In this document: positions 14,040-58,509 of the stretch, one piece after another
Numbering within the stretch: position 1 is the stretch's first letter
Layout: each line of letters begins with the position of its first letter
Source of the DNA: Carallia brachiata
Taxonomy: Eukaryota; Streptophyta; Magnoliopsida; Malpighiales; Rhizophoraceae
Length of the DNA: 64,000 bases
Direction: 5' to 3'
Assembly: GCA_021464245.1 (NCBI GenBank)
Contig: JADCRB010000043.1
Location: 214,168 to 278,167 of the forward strand
Made by a program: the position numbers and the translations under genes
Notes under the pieces: model-generated
Databases searched by the model: none
Seen by the model: the letters and a program-made list of their open reading frames with translations, nothing else
What the model was told of the DNA's origin: nothing

Positions 14040-15164
14040 TTATATTGATAAAAGAGAGGCCCAATCGATCTCATAAGAAGGATATTTATGCAACAAGAAA
14101 TTCCCGGAATCAACATCCAATGGCGCCTCCTCACAATCAAGGAACGTCAGCTCTGACAACGGCGAGGATCCGGCCGACCCCTCACTCTCCGTCAGAGCCG
14201 GGGATGGTGTCTCGAGTTTACAATCCTTGTCTGCAACGGCAACCTGCTGTGGCTGCTCCGGCGTCACGGCCTCAATTCGGGCTGCTGTTTTCTTCCTGCT
14301 CGACGAGTTGGATTGCTTCTCAGCTTTTCCTCCTTTCTGGGAATCAGCCAAGCTTTGACAGATGGCCTGAAGCTTGGCATCCACTGAGGAATGGAGAGGC
14401 TTGTACTCGCCGAACTCGCCCTCGACGTGGGACCCCTCGTGCCGGAGATTAGGGAAGTTGAGCCTAGCAAAGTCTCCGCGGAGCTTGTAAGCAGCCTTGT
14501 CGTAGGCCAAGGCCGCCTCCTCAGCCGTGTCGAAAGTACCGAGCCAAAGCCTTGTCCGATTCTTAGGGAGCCGGATCTCGGCGACCCATTTGCCCCAATG
14601 CCGCTGCCTTACTCCTCTGTAGAGCTTGGTGGGCTTTGGCGGCTGACCCGCTTGCTTCATGGGGACGGGCTTCGGACCCAACAAGTTAAGGCTACGATGG
14701 TGAGAAGAAGGTGGAGGTGGAGGACAGTAGCTCAAACCAAAGTTACAAATATTATTATGGTTTTGGCGGTGAATTTGGGACTGGATCTGATGGATCTGTG
14801 CAGGGGTGAGATTATTAAGCCCAATCAGACTCAAATTCTGATGACCCGACTGGCTGTTCATCGGGAACCCGGATGAAAACAGGTGGGTCGTCGAAGTTGA
14901 GCAAATATCTGGTAAAAGAAAGGGCTGCTGTTGTTGCTGGGGAGAAAAAGAAAGGAAATTGTGAGGAGGAGGAGAAAATGAAGCAAAATGGGAAATACAA
15001 GAAGAGGATGATTCTGAAGGAGATGGGGAGGCTGATGAGTAAGAAGCACTTTTCATAAAAGGTTCAAGCGCTTCCATTAACTCACCACCTCCAAAACCAT
15101 CTGATTGAAGAGGAGATCTGCTACAGTAGAAATCCATCGCAGCTGCCATGTCTAATATACTCAA
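14040..15164 (-). CDS. RAP2-4: AP2/ERF transcription factor, RAP2-4/WIND1 type (DREB A-6)
   Basis: An uninterrupted 374-codon frame with no intron in the coding part. Residues 181-239 form one AP2/ERF DNA-binding domain ([20 protein letters not shown] then [18 protein letters not shown]), including the RGV, WVAEIR and RAYD-like elements that contact GCC/DRE-type sites. The N terminus has Ser-rich and Gln-rich stretches, a [15 protein letters not shown] block, and a [14 protein letters not shown] segment. The C terminus ends in an acidic-aromatic [10 protein letters not shown] motif. These are hallmarks of the RAP2-4/RAP2-13 group (DREB A-6), known for roles in light, drought and wound responses and, for WIND1, in dedifferentiation. 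The start could instead be Met6 (15149), which matches the MAAAMDFY start of relatives; a 'ttag' just upstream may be the acceptor of a 5' UTR intron. A decayed duplicate lies at 57842-58480. The gene sits beside a retrotransposon cluster whose nearest LTR lies about 2 kb upstream of its start codon. Confidence 0.93.
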
Positions 15165-17151: not shown

Positions 17152-17961
17152 TGTAACGGGTAAATGTTAATTATAAAATAGTTAAATTCGAAAATATAAA
17201 AATAAATTATAAATAAAAATATAAAAATAAAAAAAAATTTATATGGGATCAACTTTCGTGATTCCTCTGATTAGTGTTCCTGTTTTGACTCCGTCAAGGG
17301 CTGTACGAGTTTAATTTTGACAGCAGTAAATTCCACAGCTTTTTCTTGAATTAGGTAGACTGAAACTGGATCTGAGGTACACGTCTGAACTACGTTTAAG
17401 AACCGCAGAGACTTGATTTGAACCGATCTGACTTAATTTCACCGAGAGTCGAAGGGACTTGTTCTCGAATGAGCTGTCTGGATTTTGCTGAGGGTCGTAT
17501 GAGGTTTGATCTCAGCCGGATTTGCAATATTTTGATATTTTCAGATCTATATTCTTAAAAATTCAGATCTAAAGCGATCAGATAATATAAACCCAAAAAT
17601 AACTTTAAAAATGCAAACAACAAATTTTTTGGGGCTTACCCCTGGAATATCTCTCAAAAAGGAGTTAGGAGAGTATACTACAGGGTAAAAATACGTAGGA
17701 AAAGGAGAAATTTTATTGAGAGATTTCAAAATTTTCTTTTTCTCTCAAACTCTCTGTATTTTTCTGTTTACAGATTTGCTGAATATATTTTGAACTGAGG
17801 GGCAGGGACCTATTTATATGGCTTCTTTCCCGTGTGAAAATATTGTGGAAAAGGAATATTTTTTTGAAAATATTTTTCAGCGTCGGCGTTGCCAATTTTG
17901 AAATTGGCAACGCCGACAAAAGACTTGACTTTTTCTTTTTTTTTTAAAAAATACGTTTACA
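17152..17961 (-). repeat. 3' LTR of element 1
   Basis: 810 bases with TG/CA ends (on the + strand tgtaacggg ... cgtttaca). It contains a TATA-like catataaata at 17811-17820 (-). A perfect palindrome lies at 17882-17917: 17-base arms gtcggcgttgccaattt with a 2-base loop, close to the U3 end. The paired LTR is 27110-27917. Confidence 0.93.
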
Positions 17962-18585
17962 AATATGATCCGTACCAAGTCTTGAAGTCGAGTTTAAAAC
18001 TTGAGATCTCCTGATGAACATTGAATGTTGAAATCTTTTATCTCTGATCATGTCTGCTGTTGTTTGATCGCAATAAAAACCTGATACGATTTTGAGAAAG
18101 TTAGCACCCCAGCCAATATAAAAATTGACATTCTGACTCCAGGTGCGGTCGAACTTCCATAGCTCGCAAAGGCTGGTAAAGGTTATTTGAAGTTCCAAAG
18201 CTCTAGTGAGAATGATCCGGTAGGCAAAAAACTTGAACCTCCCCAAGAGAAAGGCCCAGGATTTCGGAACTTTAAGACCGGCACACAGAGAGACTGACTG
18301 TAGTGATGATTCCCAAGTCTGCTTCGACGTAAAGAGAGTAGTTGGAACTTCCCTGCACGTCACCGCATCCAAAGGAAGATTAGGATGATTGCAGCTTCTC
18401 ATTCCTCTGTAATAGATGTGAATTAAGGAGAGTAGTTGGAACTCCATGACACCGATGGCATTAGAGACTGAGTTTCGAGGGCTTTTAGAAATCCCTCGAG
18501 GAGGACCACTTCTTCTTTTCTTAGCTCGTGCGCCTCCAACTTCATGATCAAAAAACTTTCTAAAACAAGTGCAGAGACTAGCCAT
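17944..18585 (-). CDS. ORFx, accessory reading frame of unknown function in element 1
   Basis: A 213-codon frame in the same sense as gag-pol, starting MASLCTCFRKFF. It is preceded by a conserved TATA-like sequence at 18641-18653. Shared blocks across the three elements include KFFDxEVGGARxKK near the start, EFQxxSLxxIY, REVPTTLxTS and SRLGxDH. It has no motif that I recognise. There is no signal peptide or clear membrane helix from the chosen Met, which argues against an envelope. In elements 2 and 3 the frame runs up to the polypurine tract and ends on TAA made by LTR bases. In element 1 a roughly 45-base deletion removed that end, so the frame reads into the LTR and stops at 17944. An upstream Met (18765) gives a longer frame, but the intervening region is a probable promoter. 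Function is unknown; a second captured host gene is possible. Confidence 0.5.
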   Translation of the reverse strand: MASLCTCFRKFFDHEVGGARAKKRRSGPPRGISKSPRNSVSNAIGVMEFQLLSLIHIYYRGMRSCNHPNLPLDAVTCREVPTTLFTSKQTWESSLQSVSLCAGLKVPKSWAFLLGRFKFFAYRIILTRALELQITFTSLCELWKFDRTWSQNVNFYIGWGANFLKIVSGFYCDQTTADMIRDKRFQHSMFIRRSQVLNSTSRLGTDHICKRIF

Positions 18586-18640
18586 TTTCTTTTTGAGATA
18601 AAGAAGAGTTGAGGGGTTAGTATTACAATTCGAGCATGCA

Positions 18641-18653
18641 GGATATATATACA
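18641..18653 (-). promoter_or_regulatory. TATA-like sequence upstream of ORFx (element 1)
   Basis: On the - strand tgtatatatatcc lies about 55 bases before the ORFx start codon. Counterparts exist in element 2 (tatatatcc at 32247-32256) and element 3 (43771-43781), each followed by a conserved 'tgcatg'. Conservation in three diverged copies supports, but does not prove, an internal promoter. Confidence 0.4.
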
Positions 18654-18773
18654 AACAATAAAAAGTTGTTTTTTTTTTAAACGTCAAAAAGAAGGTACGC
18701 AGAATCGAGTAAGGTCCTCCACGTCCCTTTCTTCCATAAGAGACAAAAGAGGCAGCGGCTGACAAGGGTTACG

Positions 18774-18853
18774 AAAGTCGTTACCGTGCGCTGCAGAAAT
18801 CGTTGCTGTGTGCTGCAAAAGTCGTTGTCGTGCGCTGCAGAAGTCGTTGTACC
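18774..18853. repeat. 22-23-bp minisatellite between the WUS-like gene and ORFx
   Basis: About 3.5 tandem units of the type aagtcgttgtcgtgcgctgcag. Element 3 has a similar array at about 43890-43960, and element 2 a shorter remnant at about 32368-32430. It lies just after the stop codon of the WUS-like gene. Confidence 0.7.
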
Positions 18854-18861
18854 TTATCTTA

Positions 18862-19107
18862 TCAGTCGTCTTGGCGGGGCCTGAGGCGCAGCCCTAAGTC
18901 AAACTCGGCCTCGTCTGGTGGGCTGATGATGTTGACATCGCTTGAGTCTCCCGGCTCGTTGATGCTGCTGGAATATTCTGGGAAGAGATGAAAAGTTTCG
19001 CCGGAATGACTTCCTTCTACTAGAAAAGTCCCTCATGAACTTAAGTACTTAGGAGGAATGAACCCTTGACTAACTCCGTAAGACCACAAGGACCAGTACG
19101 CATGCTC
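18862..19107 (-). pseudogene. C-terminal part of the WUS-like gene in element 1 (WUS box and EAR motif)
   Basis: This continues in the same reading frame as the homeodomain ORF after its TGA at 19108. One further in-frame TGA interrupts it (near 19034). It then encodes TFHLFP (18979-18996), matching the WUS box pattern TLxLFP, an acidic stretch, and LGLRL (18883-18897), matching the LxLxL EAR repression motif. It ends on TGA at 18862-18864. In element 3 the same places read TLPLFL and LELRL, and the first TGA is TGG. The stops in element 1 therefore look like secondary point mutations in a once longer protein of about 208 residues. Confidence 0.72.
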
Positions 19108-19611
19108 TCACAGGCTACGGCTTTGATTGTTATAGCCTGAAGAGACCATTGCAGTGGTAGAACTCAGACTTGCTTCATTTGAGGGTGAAGTCGTACCGGT
19201 GGGATCTACTATCGAAACGTTAGACTGTTCTTTGGAAAAAGCAGCTCTCAGTGCTGGTTTCTTCCTACTTCTCCGATTCTGGAACCAATAAAACACATTT
19301 TTGCCTTCGATTGCCCCAAGCGGGCGCAATTGTGAGACAAGTTGGTAAATCTGAGATGCATTAACAATAATACCTCCATTGTTGTGGAAGACTTCCTCCA
19401 AAATTTGCAGTTGTACCATGGTTGGTTGCCACCTTGTGCGGGGTAACCTTTTTTCTCCCTTGTCTAGAGGTTTAGCAACTGGTTCATCTTTCTTGTGACA
19501 GAGGAGCAAAGGTCTGGTATGTGGTGAATATCGGTTGAGACTGATGCTTGGTTTCAGACTCAAACCCTCCGTCGCTTTTATATTTTTGGGTCGTTCACAA
19601 TTTATACTCAT
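19108..19611 (-). CDS. WUSCHEL-type homeodomain protein captured by the retrotransposon (element 1)
   Basis: A 167-codon open frame. Residues 58-119 (19255-19440) form a WOX homeodomain: TRWQPT, then ILEEVFHNN, QIYQLVSQLR, and IEGKNVFYWFQNRRSRKK as recognition helix. The IEGKNVFYWFQN core is typical of the WUS clade; NRRSR recalls WOX11/12. WOX proteins are plant DNA-binding regulators of stem-cell and organ founder fate. No intron interrupts the homeobox. Elements 2 and 3 have one extra base near 19487, restoring an ATG that opens directly into this frame (MEPV or MELV). The original start was thus probably at 19487, and the upstream codons from 19611 are likely leader; a 1-nt deletion in element 1 fused the two. 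The original protein continued to 18862 (separate entry). Homeodomain residues are intact here, unlike in the other two copies. Alternative: a dead remnant with no present function. Confidence 0.82.
   Translation of the reverse strand: MSINCERPKNIKATEGLSLKPSISLNRYSPHTRPLLLCHKKDEPVAKPLDKGEKRLPRTRWQPTMVQLQILEEVFHNNGGIIVNASQIYQLVSQLRPLGAIEGKNVFYWFQNRRSRKKPALRAAFSKEQSNVSIVDPTGTTSPSNEASLSSTTAMVSSGYNNQSRSL
19576..19606 (-). promoter_or_regulatory. TATA-like sequences upstream of the WUS-like gene (element 1)
   Basis: On the - strand tataaat (19600-19606) and aaatataaaag (19576-19586) lie about 115 and 95 bases before the probable original ATG at 19487. A ccaat-containing stretch lies about 30 bases further upstream. 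The same two TATA-like sequences occur at the same places in elements 2 and 3. This suggests the gene kept or acquired its own promoter; no expression evidence is available. Confidence 0.42.
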
Positions 19612-19614
19612 GCG

Positions 19615-19926
19615 GGTCAGGAGTTGGATTGGATTTTGAACTTGGGTTCTGGACTGTGTCTGGAACTTGGAATTTTTGGGTTTTGGGCTTTGGATTAGAT
19701 TTGGTTCGAGTGTTTGGGCTTCTAGACTTAGATTTTTTTTTTTTTTGGGATTTGAGTCGGTTGTTTGGGTTTTGGATCTGGACTTTTGGATTTAGGTCGA
19801 GTGTTTGGGCTTCGAGTTTTCTGAATTGGGCTCAAGTGTTTGGGCTTAGATTTTTGGATTTGAATTTTCGCTTGGACTTTCAGATCGGGACTTCCCAACT
19901 TTTTTTTTCATTTTTTTTTATTTTTT

Positions 19927-19970
<44 letters not shown>

Positions 19971-19974
19971 ATAT
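19615..19974. repeat. A-rich tract and degenerate repeats between integrase and the WUS-like gene
   Basis: Immediately after the integrase stop (TAA at 19975-19977) the sense strand has a long A-rich run (19900-19966). About 290 bases of degenerate repeats follow, with units like ggtcgagtgtttgggcttc on the + strand. Equivalent A-rich runs and repeats occur in element 2 (about 33250-33610) and element 3 (about 44740-45070). The A run might be a relic of a polyadenylated captured transcript or simple expansion. Confidence 0.6.
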
Positions 19975-21294
19975 TTACACATAATATTGTTTCAGAAATT
20001 TACCATTGATGGGCCGATTCGGACGCCTTCTTGGTCTGACAGCATGTAAGCGTTGTGAGTAGGCCTCCTGCACTAAGTATGGCCCGTCCCATTTGGAAGT
20101 AAGCTTGTCACCAGGCCGATGCTTCATGTTGATGGGCCGTCGCACTGCAAGAACAAGGTCTCCAACTTGAAAAGATCGAGGGCGGACCCTGCGGTTGAAC
20201 GTGTTGGTGAGCCGGGCTTGGTAGCACTCAAGTTGCTGTTGTGCTTCGAGCCTCCTTTCATCGAGGCTTCTAACTCATCCAGACGTAGGCGAGCATTCTC
20301 CTCCTGTGTGAGTCCTTCCAGAACAGCCATGCGCAGGATGGAATCTGTGTTTCCAACGGCAGTATTGCTTCGACACCGTAGACAAGTGAGTATGGCGTCG
20401 CCTGTGTTGGAGTCCGGTAAGTTGTACGATACGCCCATAATGCCTCCGGAATTCTGTCATGCCAATCTCTTTTGGATTTAGAGACTACCTTCCGCAACAG
20501 GTTGCATAAGGTCTTGTTGAATGCTTCGGCCAAGCCATTTGCTGGGGCATTGTACATGGATGACTTGTACTGCTTGAACTTGAACTTCTCGCAGAGCTTG
20601 TCGATAAGCTGTTGTAGAACTGCTTACCATTATCAGTGATGATGAATCGAGGGACTCCATAGCGATAGATCAGCTGAGTCCGGATGAAATTGGCAACATG
20701 CTCCTTCTTTACCTCTCTAAGTGGAATGGCTTCAGCCCATTTTGAGAAGTAGTCGGTTGCTGCGAGGATGTACAGGTGACCAGGGATGACTTTGGCAAGG
20801 GCCCCACTAAGTCGAGACCCCAAGCTTCAAAGGGCCAGGATGAGACAGTTGGATGCAGTGGCTCCGGTGGTTGATGTATGTAATTCGCATGAAATTGACA
20901 AGCTTGACAAGTTTTAGCAAACTCAATTGAATCACGTACCATGGTTGGCCAGTAGTATCCCATCCTTCTGAGGAAGTGCAACTTAGGCCCGATTGATGTC
21001 CGCCACAAACACCAGAATGTGCTTCAGTGAGAGCCTGTTTTGCCTCTTCATTGCTAGGCAGCGAAGAAGAAACTCCATCAAAAGACCTTCGATACAGAGC
21101 ATCCTTGAGATATATGAAGCGGGGAGCTCGTCGTTGAATTTCTGTCTTATGACGACGATCTTCGGGCAGCTTCCCGTGCTGTAGTAGTCAATGATTGGTT
21201 GGCGCCAATCCTCGTCCTCCGCGAGACGTACAGATACAGCGTTGGCTGCTGTAGTTTCTTCATCATCCTTTGTGGCACTATCCATTTCTGGCAT
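19975..21294 (-). pseudogene. Integrase region of element 1, frameshifted
   Basis: Split over several frames. Recognisable parts are a zinc-binding segment (TCQACQFH with upstream histidines), the catalytic core (WGLDLVGPLP, ATDYFSKW, ITDNGKQF, and the Gly-Leu-Ala-Glu helix), and a C-terminal module with WDGPY, a GPY/F-type element that ends QYYV. Integrase joins the cDNA to the host genome. Breaks are 1-2 base indels relative to element 3, which is otherwise virtually identical here. The indels may be consensus errors rather than real decay. Confidence 0.85.
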
Positions 21295-21349
21295 ACGGCA
21301 ACAACTGTAGCCTGGATTTCTGACTTTGCAAGAGAAGTGGCCAGGTTAG

Positions 21350-22148
21350 CCAACGCGTCTGCCTGAGTTTTCTCGTCGAGGCACATGCTCCAAGGTGATG
21401 CTTTCAAATTCATCCATTAGCTGTCGAGCACGTTGATGGTAAGGCGCAAGGTCCTCTTCTTCACATCATACAATCCTGTAAGTTGGTTGATGACGAGCTG
21501 GGAATCTCCATGGACTTCTATAGTTGGAATCTTCATATCGACAGCCATTTGAAGACCAATGATCAAAGCCTGGTATTCAGCAACATTATTTGAACATAAC
21601 TCACCGAGAATGATAGCATATGGTAGTATTTGTCGTTGAGGAGTGACAAACACTATGCCGGCACCAGCACCATCACGCCTTGCTGCACCATCAAAGAACA
21701 TCGTCCATGGTGGCAGTGTCTCAATGTAAAAGACCTCTTCATCTGGAAGATCATCTGTGAACTCCCAATCTGACGGAACAGGGTGATCTGCAAGGAAGTC
21801 TGCTAGAGCTTGTCCTTTGACTGCTTTTTGAGGCACGTAGACAATGTCGTAGCTTTGTAGGATTACTGCCCACTTGGCAAGTCGTCCTGACAAGATTGGT
21901 CTAGATAAGATATATTTGACAGGATCAGCTCTGGCAATGAGACGTACCGTGTGAGCTTGCATGTAGTGCCTCAGCTTGTCAATGGCAAAGAACAGTGCTA
22001 GACATGTCTTTTCAATGGGCGAATAACTCAGCTCCGGACCGTTTAGTGTTCTGCTCAAGTAGTACAGGGCAACTTCCTTTCCCTGCTCATTTTCCTGTGC
22101 AAGCAAGGCTCCCAAAGATCTTTCCTGCGCTGCAATGTAGAGAATCAA
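21350..22148 (-). pseudogene. RNase H plus second, archaeal-type RNase H region of element 1
   Basis: A 243-codon open segment starts in the gypsy RNase H (SPIEKTCLALFFAIDKLRHY), passes through a tether (KAVKGQALADFLADHP), and enters a second RNase H with FFDGAA, AEYQAL and HGDSQLVI, carrying the expected acidic residues. The final DALANLA segment lies in another frame after a 1-nt loss near 21460. Two RNase H domains before integrase are characteristic of Tat/Ogre-type elements. Confidence 0.88.
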
Positions 22149-23083
22149 CGACTTTCCTTGAATTGGAGCACCAGGACGGTGGATTGGAAAGGTACTTCTT
22201 TATGCTCTCAAAGGCTTTGCTGCAAGCTTCGTCCCACTCGAAGTTGACATCCTTCTTCATCAACCGATGGAAAGGTTGACATCTCCCAGCTAAATTGGAG
22301 ATGAAACGGCGAATGTAGGCCAGCTTTCCTTGTAGACTTCGCAGCTCGTGCAGGTTTTTAGGTTCAGGCATCTTTTGAATTGCCTCAACCTTTGACTGAT
22401 CAACTTCGATTCCACGATGGCGCACCACGAACCCAAGAAACTTTCCTGATGTGACACCGAATGCGCACTTGAGAGGGTTCATTTTGAGCTGATGCCTCCG
22501 AAGTCTTTCGAACACTGTCTTGAGATCCTCGAGGTGGTCTTTGCGCTTCTTAGTCTTTACAACTAAGTCATCAACATAACATTCTACAATCTTGTGCAGC
22601 ATGTCATCAAAAATTTTTTGCATAGCACGTTGATAAGTGGCGCCAGCATTTTTCAATCCAAACGGCATAACTTTGTAGCAGTATATACCTTTTGGGGTGC
22701 GGAATGCTGTCAACTCCTCGTCTTCTGGTGCCATTCTGATTTGGTTATAGCCTGAAGAACCATCCATGAAGACAATGCTTCGTGACCCGTTGTTGCATCG
22801 ACTGTGATCTCCGTTATGGGCAACGGAAAGTCATCTTTCGGGCAGGCCTGTTAAGATCTCGAAAATCAACACATACCCTCAACTGTCCATTCTTTTTCTT
22901 ACCGGGACAATGTTGGCAATCCACGTTGGGTAGGTGACCTCTCGGATGAAGCCAGCATTGATCAGCTTGTTCACCTCCTCCTCGATTTGTGGAATGAGTT
23001 CCGGGCGGAACCGTCGTTGTGGCTGCTTGACAGAACGAACACCCTTCTTTACTGCTAGACGATGCACCGCAATTTTGGGTCAA
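22087..23083 (-). pseudogene. Reverse transcriptase region of element 1
   Basis: The longest open part is 226 codons (22087-22767). It has MDGSSGYNQI, FGLKNAGATYQR and the catalytic YVDDLVVK motif of gypsy reverse transcriptases. N-terminal segments (NKLINAGFIREV, VCVDFRDLN) sit in other frames at 22814-23083 because of small indels. The domain copies element RNA into cDNA. Compared with element 3, which itself has an internal deletion near 48094, the sequence is the same apart from indels. Confidence 0.9.
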
Positions 23084-23280
23084 GTCCAGGCATTTCTTTG
23101 TAACTCCATGCGAACACGTCCCTGTATTGACTTAATACCTGAACATATTCTTGCTCTTCTTCTGCAGTAGTAGAAGCACTTACAAATGTAGGTCGAGGAT
23201 CTTCCGGAGAGCCAAGATTGACCTCCTTGAGTTCATCAACAGTTGCTTGGCCACCATCTTCAAGTTCCGGGGGAGCCTCC

Positions 23281-24767
23281 TTACTTCACCATCTGATGAG
23301 TCGGACTCAGCCTCCTCGCTAATTGTGACATGAAATGAGCCTCTGACTTCACCTTCTTTGTTTGACTGGATAAGCCTGTTTGTTTGGTGGTGGTGGTGAT
23401 GGCACGTGCATCAGCTGCTCGGCTTCGGCTCTTTAGCGTGATCCGCACAGGTGACTTCTCCTGATAGCCTAAGCCAGGTCGGGACTGTGATGTTTGAGAA
23501 GTGGCGCCATGTGTGGACGGCAGCGTACCCATTGTGCTCGGGTTTGAGAAGTCATAGCCCGCCTTGGCCAAAAGCTTGTATGCATTAGGATCTAATCCTT
23601 CAATTGCCCCCGTATGTGGTCTGACGAAGCCTTTTAATGGTTTTGAAGACAAAATCGGCTCAATCTTTAGTATCGGCAGAGTGTAAGTCTCCTTCAGGTT
23701 GTGCAGCTTTTGTTTGGGTTGGCTATGTCCTTGCTCCTGTTTAGATCAATAATAAGAGAAAGGGGGTTGACCTTCTGAGCGTCGTGACTTCGGCACATAG
23801 CGTAGGACTGGAGTGGAGCTTGAAGATGCAACATCCTTGGACGAAGTTCAGCAGGCTGTGGCAGCTTTTCATTGTGTTGAGGTTGGCATTGGGGTTCTTC
23901 GACAGCTTTTCCCTTTTTGTGGATGCCCCCAGTCCAAGTAGCTTTTGATGGAATGATCTCCGGATTGTCTGTGTCGTGTAGAAGACTGCATCCGCCAAAT
24001 GTGATTCAGCATCATCGAACGGCTTTAAGTCAGCATTGACCTTTTGAACACCATTGTAGTACTTGAAGCACTGAAGGCTTGAGAGCACAACTCCATTTCC
24101 ATGAATCCGGTCGTCCTAGCAACATCTTATAGGTGGTACGTGCATCAATCACGTGAAATAGAGTGCTAGAAGTGAGATTACCGATAGTTAGCTCCAAGCG
24201 AATCATCCCAATTGCTTTTGTCCTCCTTGATTAAAGCCATGAATCATCAAGCGGCTGTCTGATAATTCATCAACACGATGCCGAGCTCCTTTATGGTGGA
24301 TTTTGGGATATATTGACTGCTGAGCCATCGTCGATCAGAACACGTCGGACCTTCTGCTCTCTCGCATAGCCTGATATATACAGCGGCCGATTGTGGGGTT
24401 TGGACCCCAACAGGAGATCCTCATCTGAAAATGAGATAGCGGAGTAACATCCGACGTGATTTTCAGCCGCCTGATGCTCCGTCGAGCTGGAATTACTTGA
24501 TGGCAGAGGTTCAGCTGAGGTCTGAAGAGTATTGCCGACTTGATTTTGCCACACTTCTATTATTTGCAAAGCTGTAAACAGCTGAGGGTTAACGAGAAGG
24601 GTTTGGAGAGCTTCATATACCTTCTCCGTTGTTGACTTTCTGTTGTCGAGCGGATCCTCCTTATAGTGTGTCACCTCTTCTGATGGTTTTGAAGTGATGG
24701 TGGTCTGGTTTGCCGAGGTTATGCCTTCCTGGTCGCAAATGATTTTATTATGGCTCTTGAACTTCAT
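23281..24767 (-). pseudogene. Protease and linker region of element 1
   Basis: 24291-24767 encodes a segment with VRRVLIDDGSAVNI, the active-site pattern of Tat-type aspartic proteases (an Asp-Gly-Ser triad within DDGS). 23281-24088 holds linker segments with no domain that I recognise. Several frameshifts separate them. The boundary where elements 1 and 3 cease to be nearly identical lies close to 24280, inside this stretch. Confidence 0.7.
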
Positions 24768-24861
24768 GATTAGCTCCTTCAGGACGAAACACTTCTCGGT
24801 TGGATGACTTACTATGCGGTGATATTTTCAGAATCTTGGATCACTGACTCGATCCTTTTCA

Positions 24862-26851
24862 TTGAGCCGCTTGCACTCTGGGAGTTCGATTAGCTTCGCC
24901 TCCAAGAGTTGTTCAAGAATGTCGGGGACGTCTGAGTCGGGGAATGGATACTGCTTCTGCTCCAACTCTCGCAATGTCACCTTCACCTTTCCGCCTTCCT
25001 GTTTTTGGCTGAGTTATTTGAGTCGGGGGATTTACCTTAGCTTTGACTCCCGCTTTTACTAGTGCGGCTTCAACAGTCATCACTTCTTTTCCTTTTCATG
25101 AACTGTTGGGTTTTTAATCTCCCTTCTGTCTCCTTGCTGGTCCAACTGGATGAGAACTGTGCCTCCGGAAGTCTGGATACTTATCTTCATATCATGTGCG
25201 CGGGTCGCCAGTTCTTCGAAGGTTCGGGTTTGATACCCTGCAGGATGTATAACAGCTCCCAATGCATTCCCTGGATGCACATTTCCACGGCAGAAGTCTC
25301 CATCAGACGATCTTTGCAGTCCAAGCTGAGGGCACGCCATCTGTTGATGTATTCGACAACAGGCTCTCATTTTCTTTGTTTGGTGCTGGTAAGCTTCATC
25401 ATACTTACCGTCCTTCGAGTGCTGAAAAATTTGTTCAGGAACTCTCGTTGGAGCTGTTCCCAACTGTTGATCGATTCTGGTTCAAGATTTATGAACCAGG
25501 TGAAAGCGGTCTCCCTGAGTGAACGAACAAACTGCTTCACCAAGAGATCTCCGTAAGTCCCTGCGTTGTTACAGGTTTCAACGAAGTGGCCGATGTGCTG
25601 TTTGGGATCGCCTCGTCCGTCGAATTGTTGAAATTTGGGCGCCTGGTAGCCCAGAGGCATGTTGAGACTTTCGATCCGTCTGGTGTACGGTTTGACGTAC
25701 ATCTATGATCCTTGGAAGGATGTAGCTTGTTGTAGGCGGATCGTATTAGCTATCATTTCCTGCAATTGTCGAACAGATAGCGAAGCTACAGAATCTGAGG
25801 GTGGCAGCTGTGTAGAGCTACCTTTTCTTTGTTTGGTGCTGGTAAGCTTCATCATACTTACCGTCCTTCGAGTGCTGAAAAATCTGTTGACGAACTCTCG
25901 TTGGAGCTGTTCCCAACTGTCGATCGATTCTGGTTCAAGATTTATGAACCAGGTGAAAGCGGTCTCCCTGAGTGAACGAACAAACTGCTTCACCAAGAGA
26001 TCTCCGTAAGTCCCTGCGTTGTTACAGGTTTCAACGAAGTGGCCGATGTGCTGTTTGGGATCGCCTCGTCCGTCGAATTGTTGAAATTTGGGTGCCTGGT
26101 AGCCCAGAGGCATGTTGAGACTTTCGATCCGTCTGGTGTACGGTTTGACGTACATCTGTGATCCTTGGAAGGATGTAGCTTGTTGTACGCGGATCGTATT
26201 AGCTATCATTTCCTGTAATTGTCGAACAGATAGCGAAACTACATAATTTGAGGGTGGTAGCTGTGTAGAGCTACCTGGTTGCTTTTATGCAGTGAAGACG
26301 TCAGCTGGTGTGGCTTTTGGAGTGAAACCGGGTGGATATGGCTGCTTATCGCGGATTTCGGGATCAATTTGGATCAGGTCTTTTCCTTTGATAGCGGCGA
26401 TCTGTTGATCTTTTTCCTCCACGACTTTGATTAATTGCAAAATCTTGTTCTCCAATTCTGAAATTCTTTCTTCTGTACTGGTTGTGTTGGTCATCATGAC
26501 GGCAACAGACGAGACTCCACGAAAGACTGGGGGAGAGAATTCTTCTAGTGCCTCTGTGTGGATCTCTACAGGATGTGTTGGATTCTGTTGAGTGGGCTTC
26601 GTCGTGTTGCCCTCGACTTCGATCGGGGTGGGTGATCGACTCCTCCATGCGGCAAGAGAGTCAGGGGAGAGATCCTGTTATTGTGTGAGCTGTGTACTAT
26701 CCGTTTCGACATTTTGTCGGATTTGGACGGCAAGAAATTGTGTCCGTCTGCGAGTTTCTGGACCTGCGTACCCAAGTAGGGTAGTTGATGCAGGCAGTGG
26801 AGCAATTGCCTTCTTTTTTGTGGCAGCAGTTGTATTCCTTTTTAGTGTCAT
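24862..26851 (-). pseudogene. Gag region of element 1, with internal duplication
   Basis: The probable start is the Met at 26851 (MTLKRNTT), after a Lys-rich leader tract. In order: an Arg/Pro-rich N-terminal part, a coiled-coil-like stretch (EERISELENKILQLIKVVEEK, 26285-26497), and a Retrotrans_gag core (FDGRGDPKQHI, TAFTWFINLEP, SWEQLQREF). The core occurs twice because of an exact 453-bp tandem duplication. In the first sense copy the codon before MYVKPYT is CAG; in the second it is TAG. Gag forms the virus-like particle. Frameshifts break the C-terminal part. Confidence 0.85.
25371..26276. repeat. 453-bp tandem direct duplication inside gag (element 1)
   Basis: Unit 1 is 25371-25823 and unit 2 is 25824-26276, exactly 453 bases (151 codons) each. 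They differ at only a few positions (for example gggcgcctgg/gggtgcctgg and ctatgatcc/ctgtgatcc). Elements 2 and 3 have one copy. The duplication is in frame and would give a gag with two cores. Confidence 0.95.
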
Positions 26852-26872
26852 TTGATGTGCTGGATACCTGTT

Positions 26873-27060
26873 AAAAATTTTTTTTTTACTTTTTCTACCT
26901 TTTTTGTCTTTTTCTCTATTTTGTCTTTTTTTCCTTTTTTTTCTTTTTCTTTTTTCTTTTTTCTTTTTCTTTTTCTTCTTTTCTCGGCTCTTTTCTTTTT
27001 TTTTCCTTTTTTTTCTTTTCTCTACTGCTTCTTTTTTGCTTTTTTTTATTTTTTTTTTAA
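26873..27060 (-). other. Purine-only leader tract of element 1
   Basis: On the sense strand about 190 bases are nearly all A and G, between the primer-binding region and the probable gag start. If translated it gives only Lys/Arg/Glu, so I read it as 5' leader and not protein. Elements 2 (38465-38605) and 3 (51478-51650) have the same tract. Confidence 0.65.
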
Positions 27061-27089
27061 GGAACAAAAGATGGGAGGTGAAGAGGTCC

Positions 27090-27109
27090 CACCGAGCGTG
27101 CCAAAAATT
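27090..27109 (-). other. Primer-binding region of element 1
   Basis: Directly after the 5' LTR end the sense strand reads aatttttggcacgctcggtg. The tggcacgctcgg part fits the expected complement of a tRNA 3' end (tgg...). I could not assign the tRNA. Element 2 keeps the same core, while element 3 has changes in it (51681-51699). Confidence 0.5.
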
Positions 27110-27917
27110 TGTAACAAGTAAATTTCGAGTCTAAAACAGTTAAACTCGAAAATACAAAAATAAATTACAAATAAAAATATAAAAATAAAAAGAAATTTAT
27201 GTGGGGTCAACTTTTGTGATTTCTCCGATTAGTGTTCCTATTTTGACTTCGTCAAGGACTGTACGAATTTGATCTTGACAGCAGTAAATTTCACAGTTTT
27301 TTCTTAAACTGGGTAGACTGAAATTAGATCTGAGGTAGACGTCTGAGCTACGCTTAAGAATTACAGAGACCTAATCTGAGCCGATCTGACTTAATTTCAC
27401 CGAGGGTTGAAGGGATTTGTTTTCGGATGAGCTGCCTGAATTTTGCTGAGGGCCGTATGAGGCTTGATCCTAGCCAGATTTGTAATATTTTGATATTTTT
27501 AGATCTATATTCTCAAAAATTCAGATCTACAGCGATCAGAGAATATAAACCCAAAAATAATTTTAGAAATGGAAATAGCAAATTTTTTGGGACTTACCCT
27601 CGAAATATCTCTAAAAAAAGAGTTATGAGAGTATAATGCAGGGTAAAAACACGTAGGAAAAGGAGAAATTTTCTTGAGAGATTTTCAAAAATTTTTTTTT
27701 TCTCAAATTCTCTGTATTTTTCTGTTTACAGATTTGTTAAATAGCTTTTGAATTGAAGAGCAGGGGCCTATTTATAGGGTTTATTTCTCGTGTGAAAATA
27801 TCGTGAGAAAAGAATATTTTTTTGAAAATATTTTTCAGCGTCGGCATTGTCAATTTTGAAATTGGCAACGCACATAAAAGACTTGACTTTTTCTTTTTTT
27901 TTTAAAATACGTTTACA
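27110..27917 (-). repeat. 5' LTR of element 1
   Basis: 808 bases with TG/CA ends, paired with 17152-17961 and bordered by the target duplication atatg. It holds a perfect TATA box tataaata on the - strand (27769-27776), probably the element's promoter. The U3 palindrome seen in the 3' LTR is decayed here (gtcggcattgtcaatttt ... gcacat). Confidence 0.93.
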
Positions 27918-30494
27918 ATATGTTCTACTTGCCCATTTAACAGAAAAAAAAAAAAAGAAAGGATGCAAAGTTTATGACAAAGAAAAAGTTATTTTTATTA
28001 TTTAGTACATAAATTAATATAACTCTTAATATACTAAAAAAAATTATATACTAATCACATTTTACTTTATTTCACAAAAAGTTAATATAAAAAAGTTACT
28101 TTAGTGCTTTCTTATGCCTGCCATATTTCTAAATAAGCTTTGTGGTGTTCTTTATTCGGATTAGTTTTACTAACTTTCTTTCAAGTCTGCGCCTCCTTTT
28201 GGATTTTCACTTTTTTTGGGAATTTTATTGTGGATTGGATTATTTTTAAATAACATTATCACGGGATCTTTAATATTAGGTAATAGTATCTTTTAGGAGA
28301 TACTTTAACGATTTAAGTTTAAAATTTTTATTATAGAGATTTTAAATTGAAATTATAAGAGGAGAATAATAAGATTTATGAAAAAAAATATCTATATCAT
28401 AAATAATGAATCTTTTAATAAATTGAAAAAAAATTAGGTAATAGCAAGTGTAACCATGATTGATAGACGGGTTCCAATAAAAATTTATTAGCAGGTCCAA
28501 CCATTTATATCTGTCTTGTGTTTGTCTTTTTCTTCCCATCGGTTACGAAAATTTTTTGTCTAGCTAGAGACATAAAGATAAAGGGTTGATCCTAGCACGT
28601 AACAACGAATATGAATACAAAATTAAAAAATTTTAATAAAATATTTCGAATTATCAGGTTAAAAGTACGGGACAAAAACCTAAACTTTGAGGTAGACAGA
28701 TGACCCACCAAATAGAAGGCTCCAGAAACCTAGGCTAATACAATTAAAATAAGAGTAATATAATCCATTTCATATTACTGTTTGTACGCCTATTGTTTTT
28801 TGTTCTTAAGGATTTTCAAATAGCTCCCCGCACGTGCTTGGACTGGAAAATGCGGCAGACACAGTCCAGATCAGCGACCGAAAAATTAGAAATCAATAAA
28901 TTGGTGGTTACATAATTATAATATATAAAAAAATATAAAATAAATTTAATAATTTATTTATTTTTTAAAATTTAAATTATTTTTTATAATTTAATAATTT
29001 AAATTTATTTTTTAACTTTATATTTACTATTATATAAATTACATAACTTTCTTTTAATTAATCTATGAAATTCAAGAGAGCGGAGAAAATTAAAGTTTTA
29101 ACTTATTAGTTTAGATGTTTGTTCATTTTTTACTTTATTTTTTACAGACATCTATTATAAATCAATACATAAACACTTTTCAATAACATTTTTATAATAT
29201 TTTTGATATTCAACTTTTTGATAACCAATCAACACATGTCACGTAAGTAATAACTGTAAAAAAAATATATACAAATAATTGTTACTAATATTTCTCTTAA
29301 TAACAATTAAACAAGGTGTAATTCCCCAGGTGTAATAATTTATTAAATTTATTTCTAATACTAGTATTTTTGGAAAAAAAAAACAGAGACGATGCCACGT
29401 ACAAGCAGCCGCAAGCAGTTTTGTCTTTGTGTGTGGAAATTTCTGAAACAAACTTGACCATGGTTAATTGTAATTTGACCCTAGTTCGGTTACCCCGAAG
29501 AATACGGCGCACAATTATTGAGAAAGAGAGAAAATAGTAACGGACGGACGTGCCACGTGCGCCAACGTGCGCGTGACAGAACAGAAAAAACTGTTGATTC
29601 TTTATTTGCGGCGCCCGTCAGATGCAGTTATTACCTTGGACTCGGTAAGGGACCATTCCCATAACGCTTGACCCACGCGCTAAACGTCAATGAGTCCATA
29701 TGTTAGCGTAGGATCTGATCCCAAGCCTACCATAGATGAACAAGATTGTTACGTGGATTTCACGCGTTAGAGTCGAGCGTAGATGCTTCTCGGCGCTGAC
29801 AAGAACTAGTGAGGTGAGGCGAGCCTAACCGAACCACAGGGGTAGGGAGCAGCTGGTGCTGGTTAAGTTAGTTGACCAAAACTGGAGGTGCTAGCAGAAG
29901 AGAATCCTAGAAGGAATATGGGGACCATGCTCCTGGATCGTGCTCGGCGTATAATAGATTACAGTGTACAGTGTACACAGATCATCGGTCTAGGGTTAGG
30001 TTGGTTTACCATTTCATTCAAATCCATTAGTAGGGGTATTTTGAAAATTTTTAAAAATTTAATTATAAAGACATACATATAAAAGATATATAATTAATAA
30101 AATAATATTTAATTATTTAATTATTTATAATTTTTCAGATTTAACATATTTTCATAATCTAATTATTTAAATTACTATATTTTCACTATATTCTCACTAG
30201 CGTGTAGCCACAAAGCATTTTTTTTATTTTTAAAACTATACTCACCCCAAACAGAGTGAAACCGGTCAAATTATTTTTAACAGTTGTAAGTTAATTTGAT
30301 TAATTTGGTGATTTAAATATTTTTTATGGTAAAAAAGAACGTCTCAAAGAATAACGAAAAAAAAATTACCTAAACAACATGAATAAGATTTTATTTTAAG
30401 TAAACTATTGGAGAAAATTAATTATATTTAAACATAATATAAATGGATTGAAGTCATACGTTTGGTAGAAATGGTTGGATTTTTTCAAGCTATT
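27918..30494. other. Host flank between elements 1 and 2
   Basis: AT-rich with no gene. 28100-28600 is clearly similar to 58885-59205 (tgccatatttctaaataag, gtgtaaccatg, gggtccaacca-like stretches), so it is part of the old segmental duplication. 29540-29580 holds a cluster of ACGTG motifs (gacgtgccacgtgcgcc), possible G-box/ABRE sites without an evident gene. 28900-29050 is an AT-rich patch with partly inverted ends (ggttacataatta/ aaattacataac), possibly a MITE. Confidence 0.45.
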
Positions 30495-31527
30495 TTTAAC
30501 AGGCGTAAATCTCGAGTCTGAAACAATTAGACTTGAAAATATCAAAATAAATTACAAATAAAAATTTAAAATAAAAGAAAATTTACGTGGGATCGATTTT
30601 CGTGATTTCTCCTATTAGTGTTCTTTTATAACTCCTGTCAAGGGCTACTCGAGCTTGATATTGACAGCTGTAAATTCCACAACTTTATCTTAAATTGGGT
30701 AAACTGAAAGTGGATTTGATATAGACATTTAGACTACGGTTAAGAACTGCAAAGACCTGATCTGAGATAATCTGGCTTAATTTCACCGAGGGTCGAAGGG
30801 ACTTGTTATCGGATGAGCTGCCTGGATTTTATTGAGGGCCGTATGAGACTTGATCTCAATCGGATTTGTAATATTTTGATATTTTTATATCTATATTCTC
30901 ATAAATTCAGATTTAGAGCGATCAGATTATATAAACCAAAAAATAAAATTAAAAATGGAAACAGCAAATTTTTTAGAGTTTACATATGAAATATCTCTAA
31001 AAAAGGAGTTAGGAGAGTATACTGCAGAGTAAAAACACATAGGAAAATGAGAAATTTTCTTGGGAGATTTTCAAAATTTCTTTTTTCTCTCAAGTTCTCT
31101 GTATTTTTTTGTTTATAGATTTGCTGAATATTGGATTGAACTAGAATGAAAGGAAGTGTTTTTGGAGACTTTTCTTTTGTAAGGCTTTGCAATTTTTGTG
31201 GGATTTCTTCTGTATGATTTTGCAATGCTTGCTGTGCCGTGTTTCTTTTTTTTTTTTTTTGTGGTGTGATTGGCTTGTTGATTTCTCTGGAGATGATGCA
31301 AAGCCTCTAAAACAGCCTATTTATAGGCTTAAAACCTTACTGTGCCAACTAACTTTGTTTGCAAAAGTCTCGGTTAGGTACCCAACCATTGAAATTTGCA
31401 TGCACCATGCAAACCTCGTGCATAAGATTTCTTTGACTTTTCAATTTGTTGGCTTTTCTTCTTCCTTTTTATTATTATTTTTTTTTCTTGGGTAGTTGGC
31501 CGACCTTTGAAAATTTTTGTACTTACA
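30495..31527 (-). repeat. 3' LTR of element 2, divergent U3
   Basis: About 1030 bases. The R/U5-side half (30495-31125) aligns with the other LTRs, though its outer end is mutated (tttaacaggcg instead of tgtaacggg). The U3 half (31130-31527) is unlike any other LTR here, with a TATA box tataaata (-, near 31318-31325) and a tttgcatg-cac-catgcaaa hairpin near 31397-31415. The inner end is followed by aatgcccccactt, the complement of a polypurine tract. Confidence 0.8.
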
Positions 31528-32190
31528 AATGCCCCCACTTCATGGGTTGGTAAGGAAGAACTTTGCAGACGTGATCCGAACCGAGTCTTGAAGTCCAGTT
31601 TGAAATTTGAGATATCCTGATAAATATTGAATGTTGAAATTTTCTATCTCCGGCTAGCCCAACTGTTGTTGGATCTCAATAGGAAACAGATACGATCTTG
31701 AGAAAGTTAGCAGCCCAACTAATATAAAAATTGAAGTCTTGACTCTAGGTGAGGTCGAGCTTTCATAGCTCGCAAAAGATTTTTTATATGTCTTAAAGTT
31801 CCATAACTCTAGTGAAGATGATTCAGCAGGTAAAGAACTTGAACCTCCCCATGAGGAAGGTCCAAGACTACAGAACTTCAAGACCTACACACAGAGAGAT
31901 GGGTTGTAGTAATAATTCCCGAGTCTGCTCCGACGTAAGGAGAGTAGTTGGAACTTCCTTGTACGTCGCCGCATTTAAAAGAATATGAGGATGATTGCAA
32001 CTTCTCATCCCTCTGTGGTAGATGTGAATTAAGGAGAATGGTTGGAACTCTATTACACCGATGGCGTTGGAGATTGAGTTTCGAAGGCTTTCAGGGATCC
32101 CTCGAAGATGACTACTCCTCTTTTCTTAACTCGTGCGCCTCCAACTTCTTGATCAAAGAACTTACTGAGAAAAGTGCAGATACCAGTCAT
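31523..32190 (-). pseudogene. ORFx of element 2, with stops
   Basis: The ATG at 32190 opens MTGICTFLSKFFDQEVGGAR, matching ORFx of element 1. Several in-frame stops and a frameshift follow. The final codons (KWGHL) overlap the polypurine tract, and the stop TAA (31523-31525) is formed by LTR bases 3-5. This shows what the ORFx end was before element 1 lost it. Confidence 0.6.
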
Positions 32191-32441
32191 TTTCTTTTTG
32201 AGAAAAAGAAGAGCTGAGAGGTGAGTGTTATGACTCAGGCATGCAGGATATATATGCATACACCAAAGATTTTTTTTTTGAAAAGTCAAAAAGAATATAC
32301 GCATAATCGAGTAGGGTCCTACACGTCTCTTTCCCACATAAGAAACAAAAGAGACAGCGGCTGACACGCGTTACGAAAGTCGTTACCGTAGGCTTTAGAA
32401 GTCGTTACCGCGTGCTGCTAAAGTCATCGTACCTTATCTTG

Positions 32442-33068
32442 TCAGCCGTCCTGGCGGGGCCCGAGGTGCAGCTGCAAGTCAAGCCCGGCCTCCTCCGGTG
32501 GGTCGATGATGTTGACGTTGCTGGAACCTCACGACTAGTTGATGCCACCGGAATATTCTGGAAAGAAAAGCAAAATTTAGCCGGAATGACCTCTTTCTAC
32601 TAGAAAAACTCCTCATGGACTTAAGTACTTATGAGGGATGAACCCTTGGCTGACTCCATAAAACCACCAGGACCAGTACGCGTGCTCTCACGGGCAACGG
32701 CTTTGATCGTTATAGCCTGAAGAAACCATCGCAGTGGTAGAACTCGTACCTGCTTCATTTGAAGGCGAAGCTGTACGGGTGAGATCTACTATCGGAACGG
32801 CGAACTGTGCTTTAAAAAAACCAATTCTCAGTGCTATTTTCTTCCTACTTCTCCGATTTTAGAACCAATAAAACACATTTTTTCCTTCGATCGCCCCGAG
32901 CAGGCACAATCGTGAGACAAGTTGGTAAATCTGAAATGTATTAGGAATAATACCTTCACTGTTGTGGAAAACTTCCTCCAAAATTTGCCGTTATGCCATA
33001 GTAGGTTGCCACCTTGTGCGGAGTGACCTTTCTTCTCCCCTGTCTTGAGGTTCTACAACTAGTTCCAT
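32442..33068 (-). pseudogene. WUS-like homeobox gene of element 2, nonsense-mutated
   Basis: The span from the ATG (33068) to TGA (32442-32444) is exactly 627 nt, a multiple of three, with no net indel relative to the inferred original. The homeodomain is recognisable (RTRWQPTM, GAIEGKNVFYWF), but CAA became TAA just after PTMA and the glutamine of WFQNR became TAA. Further stops lie in the linker and the WUS-box area. The EAR-like DLQLHL remains near the C terminus. Conserved TATA-like sequences lie upstream (near 33155-33190). This copy cannot make the full protein. Confidence 0.8.
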
Positions 33069-33629
33069 CTTTCTTGTAGCAGAGGAGCAAAGGTCTGGTA
33101 TGTGGCGAAAATCGGCTGAGACTGAGGCTGGGTTTCAAACTCAAACCCTCCGTCGCCTTTATATTTTTGGGTCGTTTACAGTTTATACTCATGCGAGTCA
33201 AGAGTTGGATTGGATTTTGAACTTGGGTTCTGGACTTGTGTATGGAACTTGAGATTTTTGGGTTTCGGGTTTTGGATTGGATTTGGGTTTTTGGGCTTAG
33301 GTTTTGTGTCTAGGTTTTAAATTGGACTTGAGTTTTTGGGCTTTCTTGATTTGGGCTTTTGGATTTGGGTAGAGTGTTTAGTCTTCTGAACTTGGACTTT
33401 TGGATTTGGGTCGAGTGTTTAGGTTTTGAATCTGGACTTGGTTTTCAAGCTTTGGACTTGGGCTCAAGTGTCTTGGCTTGGATTTTCGGGTTTGGATTTT
33501 CGCTTGAACTTTCAGATCGGGACTTCCGAACTTTTTTTTTTATTTTTTTTTCTTTTTTCTTTTTTCTTTTTCTATTTTTCTTCTTTTTTCAAAATTTTTT
33601 CTTTTATTTATTTATTTATTTCAACATAT

Positions 33630-36600: not shown

Positions 36601-36782
36601 CTATGTTGGCAATCCACATTGGGTAGGTGACCTCTCGGATGAAGCCAGCATTGATCAGCTTGTTAACCTCCTCATCGATTTGTGGAATGAGTTCCGGGCC
36701 GAACCGTCGTTGTGACTACTTGACAAAATGAACGCCCTTCTTTACTGCTAGACGATGCACCGCAATCTTCGGGTCAAGTCTA
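33630..36782 (-). pseudogene. Pol remnant of element 2 (integrase, two RNases H, reverse transcriptase)
   Basis: The reverse transcriptase segment is open for 161 codons (36029-36514) with MDGSSGYNQI and YVDDLVVK. RNase H (SPIEKTCLALFFAIDKLRNY, 35558-35746), the second RNase H (VHGDSQLVINQ, 34985-35224) and integrase segments (33630-34940) follow with many stops. Substitutions relative to elements 1 and 3 are spread throughout, consistent with older, independent decay. Confidence 0.8.
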
Positions 36783-36847
36783 GGCATTTCTTTGTAACTC
36801 CATGCAAGCACGTCCTTATATTGACTTAATACCTGAACATATTCTTA

Positions 36848-38460: not shown

Positions 38461-38653
38461 TGAAAATTTTTTTTTCCTTTTTTTGTCCTTTTTTTGTTTT
38501 GTCTTTTTCTCTTTCTTCTTTTTTTTTTCTTTTTCTTCTTTTCTCTGCTCTTTTCTTTTTTTGCTTTTTTTTCCGCTGCTTCTTTTTACTCTTTTTTTTT
38601 TTAAGGAACAAAAGATGGGAGGTGAAGAGGTCCCATCGAGCGTGCCAAAAATT

Positions 38654-43714: not shown

Positions 43715-43969
43715 TTTCTTTTTGAGAAAAAGAAGAGCTGAGGGGTGAGTATTACAACTCGGACATGCAAGACATATATACATACAATAAAGATTTTTTT
43801 TTTTTGAAAAGTCAAAAAGAAGGTACGCAGAATCGAGTAGGGTCATCCACGTCCCTTTCCCGCATAAGAGACAAAAGAGGCAGTGGCTGAAGCCGTTGCT
43901 GCAGAAGTCATTACCGTGTGCTGCAGAAGCCGTTGCCGTGTGCTGCAGAAGTCGTTGCACCTTATCTTG

Positions 43970-44598
43970 TCAGACGTCTTGGTGGGGCCCAAGGCGCAAC
44001 TCCAAGTCAAGCTCGGCGTCGTCTGGTGGGCCGATGATGTTGACATCGCTGGAGCCTTCCGACTGGTTGATGCTGCTGGAATATTCTAAGAAGAGAGGCA
44101 AAGTTTCGCCGGAATGACTTTTCTTTCTGCTAGAAAAGTCTCTCCTGAACTTAAGTACTTAGGAGGGATGAACCCTTGACTGACTCCGTAAGACCACCAG
44201 GACCAGTACGCATGCTCCCACAGGCTACGACTTTGATTGTTATAGCCTGAAGAGACCATTACAGTGGTAGAACTCTAACCTGCTTTATTTGAGGGCAAAG
44301 CTGTACTGGTAGGATTTACTATTGGAACGGCAGACTGTCCTTTGGAAAAAACAGTTTTCAGTGCTGATTTCTTCTTGTTTCTCCGATTCTAGAACCAATA
44401 AAACACATTTTTTCCTTCGATCGCCCCGAGCGGGCGCAGTTGTAAGACAAGTTGGTAAATCTAAGATGTATTAGGAATAATACCTCCATTGTTGTGGAAG
44501 ACTTGCTCCAAAATTTGCAGTTGTGCTATGGTTGACTGCCACCTTGTGCGGGGTGACCTTTCTTCTCCCTTGTCTTGAGGTTCTGCTACTGGTTCCAT
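43970..44598 (-). pseudogene. WUS-like homeobox gene of element 3 with WUS box and EAR motif
   Basis: ATG at 44598 (MEPVAEPQDKG), stop TGA at 43970-43972, 629 nt. It encodes a WOX homeodomain (RTRWQST, ILEQVFHNNGG, IEGKNVFYWF), a Trp-rich linker (AYWSWWSYG), TLPLFL (44087-44104; one residue off the WUS box TLPLFP), and LELRL (43991-44005), matching the LELRL EAR motif described in WUSCHEL. Lesions are CAG to TAG within helix 2 and within WFQNR, plus a 2-nt insertion before the WUS box. This copy best shows the repression motifs, while element 1 best preserves the homeodomain. Confidence 0.82.
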
Positions 44599-45020: not shown

Positions 45021-45062
<42 letters not shown>

Positions 45063-45078
45063 ATTTTTTTCAACATAT

Positions 45079-46120: not shown

Positions 46121-46162
46121 CCAGAATGTGCTTCAGTGAGAGCCTGTTTTGCCTCTTCATTG

Positions 46163-51470: not shown

Positions 51471-51477
51471 AAAAACA

Positions 51478-58480: not shown

Positions 58481-58509
58481 TTGGTCGAATAACCTGCTTT
58501 CTTGTTCAA

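Follow-up and report, generated by a model that had tools for sequence, protein, structure and literature searches.

The 64-kb stretch of DNA analysed here, called the window throughout, carries on its minus strand three LTR elements of a single Tat-type Ty3/gypsy family, E1, E2 and E3, and each of them holds a WUSCHEL-type gene in sense orientation, in the order integrase, gene, 3' LTR. A sequence-only reading of this DNA had placed a gene with a WOX homeodomain between integrase and 3' LTR in all three copies, and the coordinates as well as the Pfam and PDB matches agree with it. The features of the three elements, in window positions, are:

17152-27917, minus strand: element E1, bounded on either side by CATAT, its 5-bp target duplication
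27110..27917, minus strand: 5' LTR of E1, from the LTR comparison
25703..26209, minus strand: gag of E1 (Pfam Retrotrans_gag, E 5.8e-7)
22087..22767, minus strand: reverse transcriptase of E1 (Pfam RVT_1, E 3.9e-31)
21417..22148, minus strand: RNase H of E1, then a second RNase H-like domain (RVT_3), both from Pfam
20485..20823, minus strand: integrase core piece of E1 (Pfam rve, E 1.8e-7; 31.8 bits, slightly below the curated cut-off of 32.6)
18862..19487, minus strand: WUSCHEL-type gene of E1, aligned MEP start to aligned final stop
19252..19440, minus strand: homeodomain of E1 (Pfam PF00046), open, with IEGKNVFYWFQN intact
18979..18996, minus strand: WUS-box-like TFHLFP of E1, from the sequence
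18883..18903, minus strand: EAR-like motif FDLGLRL of E1, from the sequence
17152..17961, minus strand: 3' LTR of E1, starting TGTAAACG and ending GTTACA
about 30492-39464, minus strand: element E2, with its 5' LTR at 38654-39464 and its 3' LTR from about 30492
32442..33068, minus strand: WUSCHEL-type gene of E2, aligned MEP start to final stop, with several internal stops
42306-52474, minus strand: element E3, with LTRs at 42306-43056 and 51700-52474 and a 5-bp target duplication, CAAGC
43970..44598, minus strand: WUSCHEL-type gene of E3, aligned MEP start to final stop, with stops and a two-base insertion

The Pfam domains of E1 follow the order gag, RVT_1, RT_RNaseH, RVT_3 and rve, which is the Tat arrangement, and the position of the second RNase H suggests that it is the aRH of Tat elements, as these are outlined in the part of the literature at hand. 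The LTRs of E1 and E3 have TG...CA ends (TGTAAACG...GTTACA), and the target duplications that had been claimed for two of the elements are those of E1 and E3; in E2 no target duplication was seen, and its 3' LTR is without the usual start and end sequences. The two LTRs of each element differ by a K2P distance of 0.14 in E1, 0.20 in E2 (from partial LTRs) and 0.10 in E3, so that all three insertions are old; substitution rates per site per year of 1.3e-8 or 7e-9 would give them ages of about 4-8 My or 7-14 My, respectively.

Several other features lie in or beside these elements. Another LTR of the family, solo or truncated, stands between E2 and E3 (40451-41123), and the gag of E1 contains a 453-bp tandem duplication, 97% identical (25370-26276). 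In E1 the interval that separates the WOX gene from the 3' LTR has a region (17947-18765) with an open frame of 273 aa (MASLCTCFRKFF...), and the stretch recurs in many copies; because it has no Pfam match and its length and frame vary among copies, no coding claim is made for it. Over about 4 kb of pol, E1 (20000-24117) and E3 (45100-49226) have a substitution identity of 98-100%, interrupted here and there by small gaps; outside this block the two elements are 77-91% alike towards the WOX gene and 82-97% alike towards gag. The block may stem from gene conversion, inter-element recombination or an assembly fault. Of host genes, the window holds an AP2-domain gene of 374 aa (14043-15164, minus strand), a stretch about 43 kb from it that is 77-78% similar to parts of it (57849-58671), with E1, E2 and E3 all sitting between the two, and a piece of a WD40-repeat gene (62291-62809) whose best E-value is to the THOC3 propeller, a match far below the model cut-off.

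The E1 reading frame at 19108-19611, 167 aa long, matches the Pfam Homeodomain with an E-value of 1.3e-11, and its best sequence matches in the PDB are WUSCHEL (2.9e-16) and STENOFOLIA (3.1e-15). The homeodomain is of the WOX type, with IEGKNVFYWF present, and beyond two in-frame stops the frame reads TFHLFPEY and then DLGLRLRP. These two sequences resemble the WUS box (TLxLFP) and the EAR-like motif of WUS-type proteins. AlphaFold2 predicted three helices for the E1 homeodomain, with block pLDDT values of 92-96 that fall to 80 where the third helix ends, and modelled the frame outside the homeodomain poorly; the best Foldseek match of this model is WUS-HD 6ryd, and the top ten are all WUS-HD or STENOFOLIA. 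None of the three window copies is undamaged. The start codon of E1 is one base short and an upstream frame joins it, and its tail has two stops; E2 and E3 share a stop at the Q of WFQN within the homeodomain and have further stops, and in the alignment the WUS box is degenerate in all three. An intron that would remove the tail stops of E1 and E2, considered for splice-like sites seen by eye, was rejected, as other copies are open through the same stretch. Reading the 42 residues before MEP/MKP in the 167-aa frame as protein was also rejected, given that the frames differ among copies; the stretch ahead of MEP/MKP is probably untranslated or incidental.

In the assembly from which the window comes (337.5 Mb, 164 contigs), a 32-base homeodomain pattern allowing up to 3 mismatches occurs at 832 places and the backwards pattern at 0, and these counts, together with the E-values, exclude chance similarity. 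The sequence-only reading had named two results that would tell against it, absence of the gene from other copies of the family and homeodomain similarity at chance level; both were looked for, and the gene proved widespread and its similarity far above chance. At the 100 exact homeodomain places listed, the codon for the glutamine of WFQN is CAG in 95 and TAG in 5. A 34-base integrase pattern, searched at similar stringency, gave 786 places against 0 for its control. With the E1 protein as query, scoring of 150 out of 2665 first-look candidates gave 150 matches, one of them E1 itself. A Nymphaea WUS query, for which 138 of 1384 candidates were scored, gave as its best nine matches host WUS-clade exons, which we read as two WUS, two WOX1-like, WOX2, WOX3, two WOX4 and WOX5; the remaining 129 have 40-46% identity and appear to be copies of the element gene. 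No relative was found in the viral contigs searched.

The claim that the gene travels with the element was borne out at this scale. On contigs C1-C32, 49 of the 99 exact integrase sites are followed in sense orientation, at a distance of 1.0-1.27 kb, by an exact homeodomain site, with 0 such sites on the wrong side or strand, and the count rises to 53 of 99 when protein-level places within 2.5 kb are added; conversely, 49 of the 69 exact homeodomain sites on these contigs have an exact integrase site. The other 46 integrase sites there have no WOX place adjoining them among the matches listed, and at these the gene may be absent or its pattern mismatched. Forty copies were fetched with their flanks from the 150 E1-protein matches, mostly from the top ranks, a sample therefore biased to E1-like proteins. 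The proposed count of loci lying between integrase and the family LTR gave, in this sample, integrase upstream on the same strand in 38 copies (exceptions L009 and L022) and a family-LTR match downstream in all 40 (partial in L043, L044 and L047, weak in L009). One of them, L013, is 97.5-98.7% identical to L026, L028, L033, L037 and L038 in alignments that stop at the LTR end, and hence gene-bearing copies inserted independently and fairly recently. L013-L016, by comparison, have the element and its flanking DNA in common at about 99.3-99.98% identity; these four were rejected as recent jumps and, on account of the shared flanks, are taken as segmental duplicates or unmerged haplotype copies.

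It could be supposed that nothing was captured, and that host WOX loci were invaded by elements or the arrangement arose as an assembly artefact. The nearly identical pol block of E1 and E3, about 4 kb at 98-100% inside less similar flanks, is a possible assembly fault, and four of the 40 fetched copies share their flanks. However, the gene is found at hundreds of places at a near-constant distance from integrase, alignments of independent insertions stop at the LTR ends, and the host WOX genes are separate loci; the results contradict such an origin, which we regard as extremely improbable. They support the conclusion that a WUS-clade gene moves together with the element and did not get there as an accidentally trapped host exon, and we hold gene capture followed by carriage throughout the family to be highly probable.

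Several genome copies retain what the window copies have lost, an unbroken frame of about 205 aa that runs from MEPVAEPQ or MKPVAEPQ through the homeodomain to TLPLFPEYSG, ELDLELHLGPR and a stop, and the homeodomain, TLPLFPEY and ELDLELHL stand in one frame, homeodomain first and EAR motif last, in several of them. Among the 40 fetched copies the homeodomain is open in 34 and the frame is open through to the EAR motif in 20, with TLPLFPEY in some forward frame in 30 and ELDLEL[HR]L in some forward frame in 35. Of seven extra copies, chosen by an exact 32-base homeodomain match regardless of protein similarity elsewhere, six read through the complete homeodomain in a single frame (L060 has a frameshift inside it), and three (L062, L063 and L064) have the EAR region in frame, with an intervening stop in L062 and L064.

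Whether the gene is under selection was approached through variation among the copies. Omega among 15 distinct open frames is 0.89, near neutral; as a value near 1 is expected if most differences arose after insertion, biallelic variants were split by the number of copies sharing them. L031, the tail of which is not WOX sequence, was left out of these analyses. In the homeodomain of 42 copies, a set that still holds all of L013-L016, singletons comprise 26 nonsynonymous or stop changes and 15 synonymous ones, and variants shared by at least four copies comprise 2 and 8 (Fisher p 0.030). In 46 copies, made up of 36 obtained by protein similarity to E1, the three of the window and the seven with the exact 32-base homeodomain match, and with three duplicates removed, the figures are 29 and 14 for singletons and 4 and 8 for shared variants (Fisher p 0.047; shared variants by a binomial test against a neutral 70%, p 0.0095). 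In the same 46 copies the contrast is not significant for the rest of the gene (p 0.55) or the whole gene (p 0.10). Fetching by similarity to E1 biases the sample against homeodomain changes, and the data modestly support, with this sampling bias in their favour, that the homeodomain is under constraint in the replicating lineages. In the window copies, differences at the three codon positions of the gene (16/22/14 and 18/14/12) show no third-position excess; such an excess is present in RNase H (24/10/28) and the E3 integrase piece (13/9/26), and there is no clear excess in reverse transcriptase (21/11/21) or the E1 integrase piece (8/12/9).

The near-neutral omega, the lack of codon-position bias in the gene of the window copies and the 20 of 40 fetched copies whose frame is now closed before the EAR motif would all suit a passenger, a functionless WOX segment that hitch-hikes and was amplified by a successful carrier element, and LTR elements are described as often capturing host sequences in plants, rice and sorghum among them, in the available part of a gene-capture review (PMC13317346). 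Against this, many copies keep the frame, the core residues, the WUS box and the EAR motif in spite of a homeodomain identity to host WUS of only about 50%, and amino-acid changes are depleted among the homeodomain variants common to several copies. We consider a passenger rather unlikely, and we lean towards retention of the gene by selection.

As to where the gene came from, its designation as WUS-clade holds, since it has the homeodomain, the WUS box and the EAR-like end, and in the homeodomain tree a single clade (97/84) unites the element copies and falls on the WUS-clade side as opposed to WOX11/12 (86/84, not starred as well supported). The tree that the earlier reading had called for thus placed the capture on that side, and it did not separate the candidate sources: joining the element clade to WUS, WOX3 or WOX11/12 gives p-AU values of 0.203, 0.223 and 0.135, none of them rejected. 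Plain identity of the element homeodomain is about 50% to host WUS and 51% to host WOX3, and in a wider set it is highest for WOX3-type homeodomains (55%, against 49-51% for WUS). In the alignment, an extra homeodomain residue is present in the element gene and host WUS and missing from host WOX1-5. This residue and an EAR-like C-terminus are what we take to be features of WUSCHEL proper, and the WUS box, the EAR-like end and the homeodomain length together make WUSCHEL itself the likeliest source. At both host WUS loci, of which 1.0-1.2 kb was fetched, the homeodomain frame runs out without a WUS box, an ending consistent with an intron after the homeodomain; as the element gene, in contrast, reads on without a break from the homeodomain into the EAR motif, capture via a spliced RNA seems likely.

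The explanation that we favour as a whole, and consider probable, is that a Tat-type Ty3/gypsy element captured a spliced WUS-clade gene, which was multiplied, selected and put to use as an accessory repressor. The family would have gained an intronless host WUS-clade gene, likely WUSCHEL, between pol and the 3' LTR by an RNA-mediated route and would then have multiplied to several hundred gene-bearing copies, with the gene presumably kept by selection during replication. The element would express a nuclear WUS-type accessory repressor of about 205 aa, with homeodomain, WUS box and EAR-like C-terminus. Host WUS recruits TOPLESS-type co-repressors, and the motifs of the element protein suggest that it may bind DNA and do likewise, favouring propagation of the element, perhaps by altering the state of meristem cells.

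A DNA-binding protein could also serve the element more directly, by binding the element's own DNA and tuning its transcription in the manner of retroviral accessory regulators. The predicted DNA-binding fold, with WUS bound to DNA as its best structural matches, would be compatible with such self-regulation, and the available part of one study speaks of possible regulatory functions for other extra ORFs in LTR elements of plants (PMC11963269). The five window LTRs were scored for TGAATGAA, TTAATGG, TTAATG, TGAATG and TCACGTGA, which we take to be WUS-type DNA motifs, and all counts are 0, where shuffling leads one to expect 0.5, 0.9, 4.1, 2.4 and 0.1, respectively, and for most motifs the power is low; simple self-regulation by way of these motifs is made slightly less likely by their absence. 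At its end the recognition helix reads NRRSRKK where host WUS has NHKARER, and the element protein may therefore bind other DNA sites than WUS does. We think self-regulation unlikely. The tail of the protein permits yet another proposal, namely that it acts as a decoy, its WUS box and EAR motif titrating TOPLESS or competing with host WUS and so undermining a host programme by which the element is held in check. The presence of the WUS box in 30 of the 40 fetched copies and of the EAR motif in 35, and the fact that in the 42-copy set no biallelic variant common to at least four copies changes TLPLFP or the EAR leucines, speak for a decoy, but the constraint on shared variants falls on the homeodomain and not on the tail as a whole, and we judge a decoy distinctly unlikely.

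For the accessory repressor that we prefer, a role in meristems is attractive because the subepidermal stem cells feed the germline: descendants of stem cells in the subepidermal layer give rise to germ cells, and meristems show a transient expression of transposons ahead of flowering, according to the portion of the source available to us (PMC7560203). As plants have no early-set germline, an element will be inherited only if it moves in meristem cells or in cells derived from them. A stem-cell role of the element gene nevertheless remains a tentative proposal. Equally speculative is the broader picture in which LTR elements have recruited WOX genes more than once, here and in Vigna, with a WUS-type repressor aiding the element through expression in meristems, where it would hold the stem-cell state or blunt host control, make insertions in the lineage leading to gametes likelier and be retained by selection, a plant counterpart of the capture of growth-control genes by retroviruses. 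With a WUSCHEL-type repressor in hundreds of element copies, manipulation of stem-cell identity by a retrotransposon becomes directly testable, and WOX gene counts in such genomes can be inflated by retrotransposon copies.

No published description of this element was found in the open-licence literature, preprints and most subscription papers being outside its scope. The terms "homeo" and "wus" are absent from the main texts of PMC6317226, PMC11963269 and PMC7264820, "homeobox" is absent from the main text of a screen of 121 angiosperm genomes (PMC9289625), the full domain chart of which is a supplementary figure, and homeobox and WUSCHEL terms gave no match in the main text of the 2026 gene-capture review (PMC13317346). 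WOX-carrying LTR elements are not wholly new, given a precedent in Vigna. The available part of a meeting report describes many WOX genes in Vigna marina and V. riukiuensis, more than 1000 in the latter, and states that most of the copies lie between identical LTRs and have target duplications (Naito, 2023; PMC10714607). As far as that account goes, the likeness is close, with WOX genes multiplied, flanked by LTRs and accompanied by target duplications in both systems. The host differs, in that the best named matches of its WOX3 are Erythroxylum (75%) and Vitis (71%), with the others mostly rosid, and no Vigna is present among the best 120 listed or among the matches listed in the protein searches; the WOX3 affinities make Vigna an unlikely host and point towards Malpighiales, though no further than that.

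Other known systems share parts of this arrangement. Among Ty3/gypsy elements of the Tat lineage, many have extra ORFs in the interval from pol to the 3' LTR. In the sections available, angiosperm Tat elements of the Ogre/Retand type are described with the order reverse transcriptase, RNase H, second RNase H and integrase (PMC6317226), and the element described here resembles them in its pol order, followed by a long region with an extra ORF before the 3' LTR; the extra-ORF domains that those sections name for Tat elsewhere are the plant mobile domain, Transposase_28 and Athila ORF-1, whereas here the domain is a WUS-type homeodomain. An AlkB domain in Gypsy elements of Phalaenopsis and a LONELY GUY-type (YgdH) domain in Gypsy elements of Citrus, reported in the part of PMC9289625 at hand, offer a similar case, an amplified Gypsy family in which a gene of host type has become a fixed additional domain or ORF; as described there, those elements carry enzymes, while the present one carries a gene of the homeodomain repressor type. 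With host WUSCHEL and other WOX genes the element gene has in common the homeodomain with IEGKNVFYWFQN, the WUS box and the EAR-like C-terminus, and it differs from host WUS in its homeodomain identity of about 50%, in ending the homeodomain with NRRSRKK instead of NHKARER, in its continuous frame, and in being mobile and present in hundreds of copies.
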